Below the pieces are notes generated by a model that saw only the letters and a list, made by a program, of their open reading frames with translations, searched no databases and was not told the DNA's origin. Both the position numbers and the translations under genes were made by a program. From Alphaproteobacteria bacterium (lineage in GTDB: Bacteria > Pseudomonadota > Alphaproteobacteria > Reyranellales > Reyranellaceae), in NCBI GenBank assembly GCA_019635875.1, contig JAHBYP010000002.1:248001-312000 (forward strand): a stretch of 64,000 nt of DNA, written 5' to 3'. This document shows positions 4,349-49,890 of the stretch, piece after piece. Every line of letters begins with the position of its first letter. The stretch's first letter is position 1.

Positions 4349-4450
4349 CTGTCATCCCGAGCGCAGCGAGGGATCTCATTGGAAGCGCCGGCGAGACGCC
4401 GGCACTCCCGGGAAGACACCCTGGATCCCTCGCTGCGCTCGGGATGACAG
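4349..4450. repeat. Palindromic repeat family A, copy 1, with a nested family C element
   Basis: Arms CTGTCATCCCGAGCGCAGCG... and its reverse complement ...CGCTGCGCTCGGGATGACAG bracket a longer spacer than in the other copies. The spacer contains GCCGGCGAGACGCCGGC (about 4387-4403), the core of family C. Other copies lie at 36038, 37287 and 49823. Translated, the arms give spurious peptides of the VIPSAARDP / CHPERSEGS kind. Confidence 0.9.
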
Positions 4451-11899: not shown

Positions 11900-11921
11900 A
11901 GGGCACGCGTCGATTGTTCTT

Positions 11922-12044
11922 GCCTTCCCCCGGAGGGGGAAGGTGCCCGAAGGGCGGAAGGGGGATGTCGAAGACGGACACCGGTTTCGTTGAGCCGTCC
12001 CCCTTCCGGCGCTGCGCGCCACCTTTCCCCTCCGGGGGAAGGTA
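11922..12044. repeat. Palindromic repeat family B, copy 1
   Basis: About 123 bp. Outer arms CCTTCCCCCGGAGGGGGAAGG and CCTTTCCCCTCCGGGGGAAGG flank an inner part containing GAAGGGCGGAAGGGGGATG, GTCGAAGACGGACACCGG, then CCCCCTTCCGGCGCTGCGCGCC. It lies between the importer operon and the next binding protein. Four further copies lie at 14169, 17437, 19056 and 44954. Confidence 0.9.
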
Positions 12045-14168: not shown

Positions 14169-14290
14169 CCTTCCCCCGGAGGGGGAAGGTGGCGCGCAGC
14201 GCCGGATGGGGGATGTCTCAACGAAACCGGTGTCCGTCTTCGACATCCCCCTTCCGCCCTTCGGGCACCTTCCCCCCTCCGGGGGAAGGC
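14169..14290. repeat. Palindromic repeat family B, copy 2 (inverted)
   Basis: Same element as at 11922 but in the opposite orientation: the GGCGCGCAGCGCCGGA arm comes first and the CCGCCCTTCGGGCACC arm last. It lies between the second TrpX-like gene and the SDR gene. Confidence 0.9.
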
Positions 14291-17375: not shown

Positions 17376-17392
17376 GACGCACCTGCCTTCCC

Positions 17393-17406
17393 CCGGAGGG
17401 GCGGGG
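17393..17406. repeat. Stub of palindromic repeat family B
   Basis: GCCTTCCCCCGGAGGGGC matches one outer arm of family B and then stops. It lies 30 bp before the full copy B3 and looks like a truncated element. Confidence 0.55.
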
Positions 17407-17436
17407 CGATCGCAAAAGGCCGATGTGCCTCGGTCC

Positions 17437-17560
17437 TACCTTCCCCCGGAGGGGGAAGGTGCCCGAAGGGCGGAAGGGGGATGTCGAAGACGGACACCGG
17501 CCTTGTTGAGACATCCCCCATTCGGCGCTGCGCGCCACCTTCCCCCTCCGGGGGAAGGTA
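17437..17560. repeat. Palindromic repeat family B, copy 3
   Basis: A full-length copy, same orientation as copy 1, between selA and selB. Both outer arms are perfect (CCTTCCCCCGGAGGGGGAAGG and CCTTCCCCCTCCGGGGGAAGG). Confidence 0.9.
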
Positions 17561-18969: not shown

Positions 18970-19055
18970 GCGAGACGGGCCGATTCCCTACCGCCTTTCG
19001 CCCCGGCGGGGCAACCTCCCACGCCGCCCGCCCCTCGGCGCCAGCCTTGATCCTG

Positions 19056-19177
19056 CCTTCCCCCGGAGGGAGAAGGTGCCCGAAGGGCGGAAGGGGGATG
19101 TCGAAGACGAACACCGGATTTGTTGCGGCATCCCCCTTCCGGCGCTGTGCGCCGCCTTCCCCCTCCGGGGGAAGGTA
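19056..19177. repeat. Palindromic repeat family B, copy 4
   Basis: Copy in the same orientation as copy 1, with small changes (GGAGGGAGAAGG in the left arm, GCTGTGCGCC near the right). It fills the space between selA and the next gene. Confidence 0.9.
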
Positions 19178-36037: not shown

Positions 36038-36104
36038 CTGTCATCCCGAGCGCAGCGAGGGATCCAGTGTCAGCCTGGATCCCTCGCTGCGCTCGGGATG
36101 ACAG
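36038..36104. repeat. Palindromic repeat family A, copy 2
   Basis: About 67 bp: CTGTCATCCCGAGCGCAGCGAGGGATCC, a short spacer, and the reverse complement ending GGGATGACAG. It lies between convergent mobB and the acyl-CoA dehydrogenase gene and could act as a bidirectional terminator-like hairpin. Confidence 0.9.
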
Positions 36105-37286: not shown

Positions 37287-37354
37287 CTGTCATCCCGAGC
37301 GCAGCGAGGGATCCAGTCAGCGCCCTAGATCCCTCGCTGCGCTCGGGATGACAG
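37287..37354. repeat. Palindromic repeat family A, copy 3
   Basis: Same arms as copy 2 with a spacer TCAGCGCCCTAG. It lies upstream of the acyl-CoA dehydrogenase gene and downstream of the next gene. Confidence 0.9.
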
Positions 37355-37364
37355 GATTGCTCTA

Positions 37365-38456
37365 TCACGACAGCGGCGGCAGGAGTTTCAGCCGGCGGAA
37401 TTCCTCGAACCAATCGGCCAGCATGTCCTCGGTGTCGATGACGTGGTGAAAGCCAGCCTGCATCGACTTCACCGAGCTCACGATCACCGGCGGCCCGGGC
37501 CGCTCGCGACCGTACGCGAACTGCCAATCGGCATAGACGAACGAGTCGCCGACGAACTCCTGCAAGGTCCAGGGCCGCAGCCCGTGGCGCCGCGCCAGCG
37601 CCGCCCACTGTGCCTCGCGCGTCGGCATCTCGTCCGACAGCTTCATCGGCCGCGGCTCGCCCTCCTCCATGCCCAGCGCCTGGGCGATCGCAGGCCACAA
37701 ATTGCGCCAGACATAGACGTCGCCGTTGGTGATGTTGAAGGTCTCGTTGGCCGCCGCCGGGCTGGTGCCCGCCCACTCGATGGCGCGCGCCAGCAGGTTG
37801 GCGCAGGTGCCCGAGGCGACGTAGGGCGGGCCGCCCGGCCAGTGCAGCTTCTCGCCGCGCGCCTTCGACAGCGCGCCATAGGCGCCGATCGCCGCCAGCA
37901 TGTTCATCGGGCTGCCCAGCCCGTGGCCGAAGACGATCTGCGGCCTGAGGATACTGAAGCTCCAGTCGCGGCCCTTCTGCGCCGCACGCAGCCAGTCCTC
38001 CTGCAGCCAGTAGAAGTTGGCGTGCCGGTGCCGCGGCCAGCGCTCGCGCGCCGGCACCTTGATCGGCGCAATATGCGCGCCATAGGCCTTGGTGCCCTGC
38101 AGCAAGGTGACGTGCCGGAGATCTTTCGTCACGCGCAGGAGCGGCGTCATCAGGTTCGTCAGGAACGCGAGGTTCATCTCCATCTGCGTCGTCTCGCGCC
38201 AGCCCGCCACCAGGCCGGGCAGTTCGTGGAGCGCGGCGAAGACGACATGCGTCACGCCCGCGAGCTTGGCCGATGCCGCCTCGCAGGCGGCGGCGTCGGA
38301 AAGATCGAGCGCGAGATGCTCGTGCGGTCCCTCGAGATCGGGCGCGCGGCGCGATACCGAGATCACCGTCCAGCCCGGCAGCGCATTGAACCGCGCCACG
38401 GCGGCACGGCCGACGATGCCGGATGCGCCGGCGATCAGGATCGTGTTGCCCGCCAT
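37365..38456 (-). CDS. NAD(P)-dependent reductase of the PRISE-like SDR group
   Basis: Extended SDR of 363 residues resembling progesterone-5beta-reductase/iridoid-synthase-like proteins. The N-terminal cofactor motif is ILIAGASGIVGRAAV, and the catalytic segment is NFYWLQEDWL, matching the NFYxxxED pattern. Relatives reduce activated C=C bonds of enones. The substrate is unknown. ATG 38456 is chosen over a GTG at 38474 that overlaps the stop of the upstream fusion gene. The close spacing suggests cotranscription with it. Confidence 0.85.
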   Translation of the reverse strand: MAGNTILIAGASGIVGRAAVARFNALPGWTVISVSRRAPDLEGPHEHLALDLSDAAACEAASAKLAGVTHVVFAALHELPGLVAGWRETTQMEMNLAFLTNLMTPLLRVTKDLRHVTLLQGTKAYGAHIAPIKVPARERWPRHRHANFYWLQEDWLRAAQKGRDWSFSILRPQIVFGHGLGSPMNMLAAIGAYGALSKARGEKLHWPGGPPYVASGTCANLLARAIEWAGTSPAAANETFNITNGDVYVWRNLWPAIAQALGMEEGEPRPMKLSDEMPTREAQWAALARRHGLRPWTLQEFVGDSFVYADWQFAYGRERPGPPVIVSSVKSMQAGFHHVIDTEDMLADWFEEFRRLKLLPPLS

Positions 38457-38464
38457 CGCCGCGC

Positions 38465-40210
38465 TCAGCCGCACGAGGCGAAGACGCGCGCGATGCCTGA
38501 GCGATCGACGCCGGCACGCAGCAGCAGCTCGAGCAGCAGGCGGGACTTCAGCGGATGCAGGCGGCCGCAGAAGATCATCCCCGCCTGGCGCAGTCCGATC
38601 TCCGAGCCCGGACCTTCGTAGGTCGCCGCCAGCAGCGGTCCGGCGCCGGTGCGCGGCGCGATCAGCACCGGGATCGAGCGGTTCAGCCTGACCAGGCGCT
38701 CGACCAAGACTTCAGGCACATGGCCGCCGCCCGTGCCGGCGAATACGATACCCGCGTAGCCCAGGTGTCCGGGATCGGCGAGCAGCGCATCGAGCAGGCC
38801 GCCGGTATCGTCCATCGCCGCCCATAGCAGCGCCACTGGCTTGCGCCCGGCGGCGAGCAGGCGCGTCGAGGGCTTCGGCCCCAGCGCCGCGTCGACGGCG
38901 CGCTTCCAGTCGCGCACCGGCAGCGACAGCGGGATGACGCGATCCTCGACCAGGGTCGCCAGCGGGCCCGTCGCCGGGCTGCGGAAGGTGTCGATGCGGC
39001 TGGTCTCGCTCTTCACCACATCGAACGGCGCATAGACATGATCGAGGAAGGTGACCACGACACCGATCTCCCCGACATGCTGGCGCATCCACGCCGACGA
39101 GGCCACGCGCACCGAGGCCAGCAGGTTGCCCGCGCCGTCGGCCGAGGTCAGCCGCGGGTTGCGCATCGCCGCGGTGAGGCTCACCGGCAAGCCCGCATCG
39201 AGCACGCAGTCGAGGATGAAGCTGGTCTCCTCCAGCGTGTCGGTGCCCTGCGAGACCACCACGCCCACCGGCGCATCGGCGCCCGCGCGCGGCAGCGCCT
39301 CGATGCGCTGCGCCAGCTTCAGCGTCAGATCGACCGTAAGATTGCTGCTGCCGACGCGCTCGATCGTCTCGCCGCGCACGTCGGCGACCTCGGCCAGGGC
39401 CGGCACCATGCGGATCAGGTCATCGGCGCCCAGCCCCTGCTTCATCGCCCCGGACTCGGCCGGCATCGTCGCGATCGTGCCGCCAAGGGCGAAGTATTCG
39501 ACACGCGGGTGATGCGGGCGATCCGCAACCCATGCGAGGCGGAGCTCGACACCCTCGATCGTCTTCGACGATGAGATTCGATTGGCACCCGCGCCGGAAA
39601 CGCCGAGCTTTTGCGCAAAGGTTTCGAAGTCGGAGCGTCCTGCCTGGCCCACGTCGAACGAATGAACCAGCATCATGGCATGCCGGGCCTTGATGCGTTG
39701 TGCCTCTATGACGGCCGATGCAGTGCGATGGAGTAGCTGGTACCGGAGGCTGCCGGCATCGGCGATAGAAATTCCCAGCATGCCGCATAGATCGGCCGCG
39801 CGCGCTTTCTGCCCTTTCGACATGCCGGTATCGTCGACCCGCTGCCCGAAGGTCTCGGTCACCTTGCCCTCGATGGCGAGGATTCCGGGTCCATCGGCCA
39901 AGCTCATATAGGCCATCAGATCGGTCTGGCTGGCTGCGCCTCTCGTGCGCAGCTCGACCTGCTTTTCGAATGCCGCCTCGTTCAGCGAGGCCGAGCGCCA
40001 CTCAGGCGCCTGGTCGAGGACGGCGCGGACGACCGTCGGCACACCGTCAGCCGCCAACCAGCTCGTCGCAAGTTCGTAGGCCGAGCGCCCAACCTTCCAA
40101 TGGAGATCAGGCTTGCCAAGAAACGGCTTCACGTCGATGGGTGCGCGCACGGGCAGACGCTCCGCTCCACGCATCGCGTAGAATCTGCCCCCTCCGGCCG
40201 ATAGCGTCAT
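38465..40210 (-). CDS. DUF6946 domain fused to an asparaginase
   Basis: A 581-residue two-domain protein. Residues about 24-231 match DUF6946-type proteins: KPDLHWKVGRSAYELA, then AIEGKVTETFG, then RYQLLHRTASAVIEAQR and ARHAMMLVHSF. An E-x-K (114-116) after an upstream Asp could fit a nuclease-like fold. Residues 235-581 are an asparaginase/glutaminase: FALGGTIATMP (Thr245) and VVSQGTDTLEET (Thr323-Asp324). The start at ATG 40210 has an ideal AGGAGGTGA about 7 bases upstream. No stop or frameshift separates the parts. Either a real fusion or the product of a small deletion that joined two genes. Confidence 0.8.
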   Translation of the reverse strand: MTLSAGGGRFYAMRGAERLPVRAPIDVKPFLGKPDLHWKVGRSAYELATSWLAADGVPTVVRAVLDQAPEWRSASLNEAAFEKQVELRTRGAASQTDLMAYMSLADGPGILAIEGKVTETFGQRVDDTGMSKGQKARAADLCGMLGISIADAGSLRYQLLHRTASAVIEAQRIKARHAMMLVHSFDVGQAGRSDFETFAQKLGVSGAGANRISSSKTIEGVELRLAWVADRPHHPRVEYFALGGTIATMPAESGAMKQGLGADDLIRMVPALAEVADVRGETIERVGSSNLTVDLTLKLAQRIEALPRAGADAPVGVVVSQGTDTLEETSFILDCVLDAGLPVSLTAAMRNPRLTSADGAGNLLASVRVASSAWMRQHVGEIGVVVTFLDHVYAPFDVVKSETSRIDTFRSPATGPLATLVEDRVIPLSLPVRDWKRAVDAALGPKPSTRLLAAGRKPVALLWAAMDDTGGLLDALLADPGHLGYAGIVFAGTGGGHVPEVLVERLVRLNRSIPVLIAPRTGAGPLLAATYEGPGSEIGLRQAGMIFCGRLHPLKSRLLLELLLRAGVDRSGIARVFASCG

Positions 40211-40380
40211 CGCCGTCACCTCCTGTCGCGGGCGCGACGCTATCACGGGCGGCCCCGACTTTCGCCCCGCGATAGGCGCCAGCGCGGTGCGCAAATCGGC
40301 CATGACGAGATTGCGCGATCCCTGCGGGCATGTCCGTCGTAGTGTCGGTCCGCCGCACAGCGTTGGTCGTGCGGCGTGCG

Positions 40381-40533
40381 TTCTCAGGGCGGGGTGGAAG
40401 TCCCCACCGGCGGTAAGCGCTGAGTGAGTTGAGCGCAAGCCCGCGAGCGCCTGCCAGCGTGGCGTACGGCAGGGTCAGCAGATCCGGTGCGATTCCGGGG
40501 CCGACGGTCACAGTCCGGATGGAAGAGAACGAA
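40381..40533 (+). promoter_or_regulatory. FMN riboswitch (RFN element)
   Basis: The conserved RFN core is clear: GGGCGGGGTGGAAGTCCCC-ACCGGCGGTAAG, then AAGCCCGCGAGCG, then GATCCGGTGCGATTCCGG-GGCCGACGGTCACAGTCCGGATGGAAGAGAAC. It lies about 90 bases upstream of the ribH2 start. The RBS AGGAGA sits within GTCTC-CAG-GAGAC, a small hairpin that could hide it, so translational control by FMN is plausible. Confidence 0.95.
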
Positions 40534-40596
40534 GTGGCGTAGACGCGTCGATTCGCGCAGGCGAGTCGCGCGTTTTCGTCGACTCGTGCGCCCTGA

Positions 40597-41118
<522 letters not shown>

Positions 41119-44953: not shown

Positions 44954-45083
44954 TACCTTCCCCCGGAGGGGGAAGGTGGCAGCGCATAGCGCTGACGGAT
45001 GGGGGATGTCGAAGACGAACGCAGGAGTCCGTCTTCGACATCCCCCATCCGCCTTCGGCACCTTCCCCCTCCGGGGGAAGGTA
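44954..45083. repeat. Palindromic repeat family B, copy 5
   Basis: Variant copy: outer arms as in copy 1, but both inner halves contain the GGGGGATGTCGAAGACG segment in opposite orientations. It lies between livF and the hydantoinase A gene. Confidence 0.88.
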
Positions 45084-49822: not shown

Positions 49823-49890
49823 CTGTCATCCCGAGCGCAGCGAGCGATCCAGGCGGCTTCCCTGGATCCCTCGCTGCGCTCGGGATGACA
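49823..49890. repeat. Palindromic repeat family A, copy 4
   Basis: CTGTCATCCCGAGCGCAGCGAGCGATCC, spacer, then GGATCCCTCGCTGCGCTCGGGATGACA. One base in the left arm differs (GAGCGATC). It lies upstream of the importer operon. Confidence 0.9.

Follow-up and report, generated by a model that had tools for sequence, protein, structure and literature searches.

An in-frame DUF6946-asparaginase fusion gene found in a single alphaproteobacterial genome

Gene content of the locus

The window (the whole stretch of 64,000 nucleotides that was analysed) carried a minus-strand open frame of 581 codons which ran from an ATG at 40210 to a stop ending at 38465 with zero internal stops. An earlier note on this DNA had described a DUF6946 domain joined in frame to an asparaginase with neither a stop nor a start codon between them, without giving the strand; the join is true in the assembly and its coordinates were exact. 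The features of the locus are listed below.

38465..40210, minus strand: fusion CDS, DUF6946 (PD-(D/E)XK-like) and asparaginase, 581 aa (open frame and Pfam)
39518..40150, minus strand: DUF6946 domain PF22187, residues 21-231 (Pfam, aligned family and structural model)
39922-39920, 39871-39869 and 39865-39863, minus strand: candidate catalytic residues D97, E114 and K116, respectively (aligned family)
39509..39517, minus strand: joint, residues P232-H233-H234, neither stop nor start codon (comparison with a solo DUF6946 gene and sister asparaginases)
38468..39508, minus strand: asparaginase part, residues 235-581, with Asparaginase N (PF00710) at 239-425 and Asparaginase_C (PF17763) at 459-577 (79-89% identity to solo genes)
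40218..40224, minus strand: Shine-Dalgarno sequence AGGAGGT, 8 nt from AGGAGG to the ATG (read from the sequence)
37365..38474, minus strand: downstream neighbour, NAD-dependent epimerase/PRISE-like gene (Pfam, BLASTN)
40376..40534, plus strand: divergent neighbour, FMN riboswitch (Rfam RF00050, 107 bits)
40621-41118, plus strand: lumazine-synthase gene (DMRL_synthase, ribH) behind the FMN riboswitch (Pfam)

The three Pfam matches followed one another along the protein in the order DUF6946, Asparaginase N and Asparaginase_C, all of them above the curated cut-offs. The Shine-Dalgarno sequence ahead of the DUF6946 part had been called ideal and was located as such at 40224-40218. An upstream TTG start at 40438, which would give a protein of 657 aa, was rejected because its position is antisense within the region of the riboswitch and the Shine-Dalgarno sequence of the ATG at 40210 is the better one.

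The DUF6946 match stopped at residue 231 (39518) and likeness to the sister asparaginases restarted at residue 235 (39508), which placed the joint at 39517-39509. The residues across the joint were R231-P-H-H-P235 and homology to the sisters resumed at PRVEYF. No in-frame ATG, GTG or TTG was found between codons 187 and 249 of the fusion frame, and codon 249, the next possible start, was already beyond the GGTIA threonine. A solo DUF6946 relative terminated as LRLGWVSDKPSS followed by a stop, while the fusion read LRLAWVADRPHH at the matching place. Judged from these alignments, the DUF6946 part has lost its stop and perhaps one or two residues, and the asparaginase lacks approximately its first 3-4 codons (native M-S/P-x-K), with 234 residues in their stead.

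Upstream of the fusion, DNA was shared with the sister genomes as far as approximately 25 nt from the ATG (in two of the sisters, 23-24 nt) and, with downstream homology restarting at PRVEYF, the insert would therefore be about 0.7 kb and essentially one gene. The ATG and Shine-Dalgarno sequence may either have come from the asparaginase gene or have been brought by DUF6946. A search for direct or inverted repeats at the insert ends produced just a 7-bp CGCCCGC and a 6-bp match, which is about chance level at this GC content, and no transposon or target site is therefore claimed.

Other repeats in the window

Two families of repeats were observed elsewhere in the window. A REP-like dispersed inverted repeat, TGTCATCCCGAGCGCAGCGAGGGATC, was found at 4350-4449, 36039-36103, 37288-37353 and 49824-49890, with two inverted arms approximately 40-85 bp apart at each of the four places; these arms produced false ORF ends, e.g. 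CHPERSEGS. A second palindromic family, CCTTCCCCCGGAGGGGGAAGG, occurred as inverted pairs at five places (11921-12043, 14169-14289, 17384-17560, 19054-19177 and 44954-45083).

The DUF6946 part

The domain was complete, as the earlier note had held, and matched PF22187 from profile position 2 to 213 of 214 with 215.2 bits against a cut-off of 27 (E 9e-64). D97 and E114-G-K116 were intact and in register with the motif (D ... E-x-K) of DUF6946 relatives. PF22187 was described as "component 6,732" by Durairaj et al. 2023 and put in the nuclease clan CL0236 because the motif pattern aligned with the active site of EndoMS (PMC10584680).

The structural model covered the DUF6946 domain and had a mean pLDDT of 66, with 75-90 in the core helices and strands. 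The best VIA-align matches were nearly all PD-(D/E)XK enzymes (NucS, Can2, PaqCI, SfsA, McrC and EndoMS) with Z below the safe value of 8, the top match being NucS (2vld) at Z 7.2 over 107 residues with 3.0 A. A Foldseek search with the same model gave nothing at E <= 0.001, and the PADLOC defence models gave no match at E <= 0.1. Overall, the model is in line with the published proposal of a PD-(D/E)XK nuclease.

The asparaginase part

PF00710 was matched with 139.1 bits (cut-off 22.5) and PF17763 with 55.5 bits (cut-off 34.6). Residues T245, T323-D324 and K400 aligned with the catalytic positions of solved asparaginases, i.e. GGTIA, GTDT and the lysine. The NCBIfam cut-offs were missed for both type II (TIGR00520, 169.6 against 314.3 bits) and type I (97.2 against 260.5 bits), which suggests a divergent branch of the asparaginase family. 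Asparaginases of the PF00710 type are metabolic enzymes, and the fusion was the one PF00710 gene in the genome.

The dN/dS of the asparaginase part was 0.13 to either close sister, compared with 0.127 between the sisters, and its terminal-branch dN was approximately 0.033, the same as that of the sisters; these values may be uninformative on selection after the fusion if the insertion is too recent.

Relatives and the ancestral state

In three other genomes of the same genus (G001-G003) the asparaginase was stand-alone with 79-89% identity, and the alignments began at query residue 224-234. The sister proteins started as MSGKPRVQYFALGGTIA, MPAKPLVQYFALGGTIA and MSAKPLVQYFALGGTIA, and the sister starts compared at the joint read MSGKPRVQYF and MPAKPLVQYF; all started at the same place a few residues before FALGGTIA, where the earlier note had expected an asparaginase to begin. 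A profile search of these three genomes found DUF6946 absent; G001 is rated 100% complete and the other two are incomplete or somewhat contaminated.

The surroundings of the gene were also conserved. In two relatives (L003 and L004) the solo asparaginase lay between the riboswitch with ribH and the epimerase-like gene, and in another (L005) the conserved stretch just upstream of the asparaginase was present too. Both flanks of the insert ran on into syntenic DNA.

At the family level an asparaginase match was present in 74 of 75 genomes, and only in the genome of the window (G000) did a match span both parts. Since neither the sisters nor the 75 family genomes showed another fusion, the asparaginase without DUF6946 is the ancestral state and the fusion, on these comparisons, is not an old two-domain enzyme. 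With the asparaginase alone in all close relatives, it has the look of a gene fusion that happened only once. Profile searches for DUF6946 in approximately 860 genomes found the same pairing nowhere else, and the pairing had no mention in the literature found that names DUF6946.

Distribution and origin of the DUF6946 part

DUF6946 was sporadic, in approximately 1-5% of the genomes sampled: 4 of 75 in the family, 9 of 385 in the class and 6 of 398 in the phylum (5 above the cut-off). All other genomes in which it was found carried it as a gene without asparaginase, mostly of 220-250 aa and ending a few residues past the domain, and plasmids of Mesorhizobium, Salipiger, Paracoccus and others bear it as a hypothetical protein of approximately 220 aa. 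Compared with the neighbouring genes (GC3 of 0.91-0.94) and the asparaginase part (0.90), the GC3 of the DUF6946 part was far lower at 0.74.

It is therefore probable that a foreign DUF6946 gene arrived at the 5' end of the asparaginase gene, given that the domain is sporadic, stand-alone elsewhere, sometimes plasmid-borne and low in GC3. The closest DUF6946 relatives found had 48-50% identity at best and, with the best donor candidate this distant, it is the patchy distribution and the composition that argue for a recent horizontal arrival. Close relatives of this DUF6946 were absent from viral contigs and phage records, which thus gave no sign of a phage carrier; the asparaginase gave no match in viral contigs.

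Among the DUF6946 relatives, two nearly identical loci (L009 5031-6643 and L010 4956-6574) carried DUF6946 with a C-terminal extension that overlapped the beginning of an HNH endonuclease gene by 4 nt. This pair forms a conserved, putative two-nuclease operon and is a candidate restriction or defence module. The records assign the two loci to a Marinimicrobia MAG and to a Proteobacteria MAG, probably through a binning error in the first. Another genome, G437, had three DUF6946 matches (L019, L024 and L025) that were decayed copies: two were fragments and the third contained an internal TGA.

Interpretation of the fusion

The reading best suited to these results, with a probability of roughly three in four, is that an imported solo DUF6946 gene was inserted, in the lineage of the window only, where a conserved asparaginase gene of the host begins. 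The horizontally acquired DUF6946 would have landed at the very start of the host gene, and the insertion would have removed the DUF6946 stop and approximately 3-4 of the first asparaginase codons with the frame kept, so that a protein of 581 residues is encoded. Translation would most likely start at the ATG at 40210 and yield one polypeptide. With no start codon left for its separate production, the asparaginase core probably continues to be produced and to fold as the C-terminal part; it very likely folds, as the extension is N-terminal, where related proteins (GatD) tolerate extra domains. The DUF6946 part most likely forms a PD-(D/E)XK-like domain that folds independently, and it is expected to be an autonomous or passenger domain rather than a partner of the asparaginase in asparagine metabolism.

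The earlier note had left a choice between a genuine new two-domain enzyme and a small deletion that joined neighbouring genes, and had named relatives with two genes split by a stop codon as the result that would speak against the fusion. No such relatives were found; the close relatives had the asparaginase and no DUF6946. The deletion is at most half right, since DUF6946 is a newcomer of foreign composition and not an old neighbour, while the architecture of the two-domain enzyme was borne out as encoded.

It is improbable that the fusion is broken in practice, with DUF6946 a decaying passenger, the fused asparaginase inactive or unstable and the mutation on its way out. Such a fate would fit the occurrence in one genome only, the DUF6946 of G437 with its stop codon and fragments, and dN/dS values that may say little about selection since the fusion, but neither part has a stop or frameshift, the substitution rate of the asparaginase matches that of the sisters, and the genome has no other PF00710 gene.

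An assembly or sequencing error, in which a missing base or a chimeric join merged two genes, is likewise unlikely to lie behind the fusion. An out-of-frame ATG (in GCATGG) just ahead of the joint means that a one-base error could give overlapping genes. However, the other two frames stay open for approximately 25-30 codons into the asparaginase past the joint, so one missing base would not yield a normally ending DUF6946 gene. The insert also takes the place of the native asparaginase start with syntenic DNA on both sides, and the contig is 1.06 Mb long in a genome of 17 contigs with 100% completeness and 0.43% contamination.

Finally, a useful bifunctional enzyme is possible but unsupported. 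Such a selected protein, with a PD-(D/E)XK nuclease and an asparaginase working jointly in a pairing new to description (for instance as a defence or stress effector coupling DNA cleavage to asparagine depletion), would agree with two complete domains, intact catalytic motifs, an open frame, an ideal Shine-Dalgarno sequence and the nuclease operons of some DUF6946 relatives (HNH overlap in L009 and L010), but is improbable for a fusion in one genome only whose asparaginase is a conserved core gene and of the metabolic type, with no PADLOC match and no link between nuclease and asparaginase functions among the relatives.

Both parts belong to known families and DUF6946 had already been proposed as a nuclease; what is new is an apparently private architecture from a single event. 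The fusion is no new class of enzyme and by itself shows no new enzyme type. It would be a clean, relative-dated example of the way in which a single step can turn a mobile, sporadic gene of a nuclease family into the N-terminal half of a housekeeping enzyme, while sister genomes retain the unoccupied locus. A fused protein that proved to be made and active would offer an easy handle on DUF6946, a putative nuclease family.

Comparison with known proteins

The DUF6946 part resembles its family in having the complete domain with the motif in place, and its model shows a tentative likeness to NucS/EndoMS and other PD-(D/E)XK nucleases, which Durairaj et al. report for the family. The family is normally stand-alone at approximately 220-250 aa, whereas the copy in the window has no stop and continues into the asparaginase. 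The second part resembles bacterial L-asparaginases (type I/II fold) in both domains, the GGTIA threonine, the GTD and the lysine after the central strand, and differs in that the native first codons are replaced by the 234 residues. Archaeal GatD (Glu-tRNA(Gln) amidotransferase subunit D), a conserved tRNA-dependent enzyme, is similar in that it naturally has an additional N-terminal part ahead of an asparaginase-like domain, and in the GatD structures 2d6f and 1zq1 the asparaginase match starts at chain residue 77-83. However, the N-terminal part of GatD is another, short domain, and the fusion scores far below the GatD cut-off.
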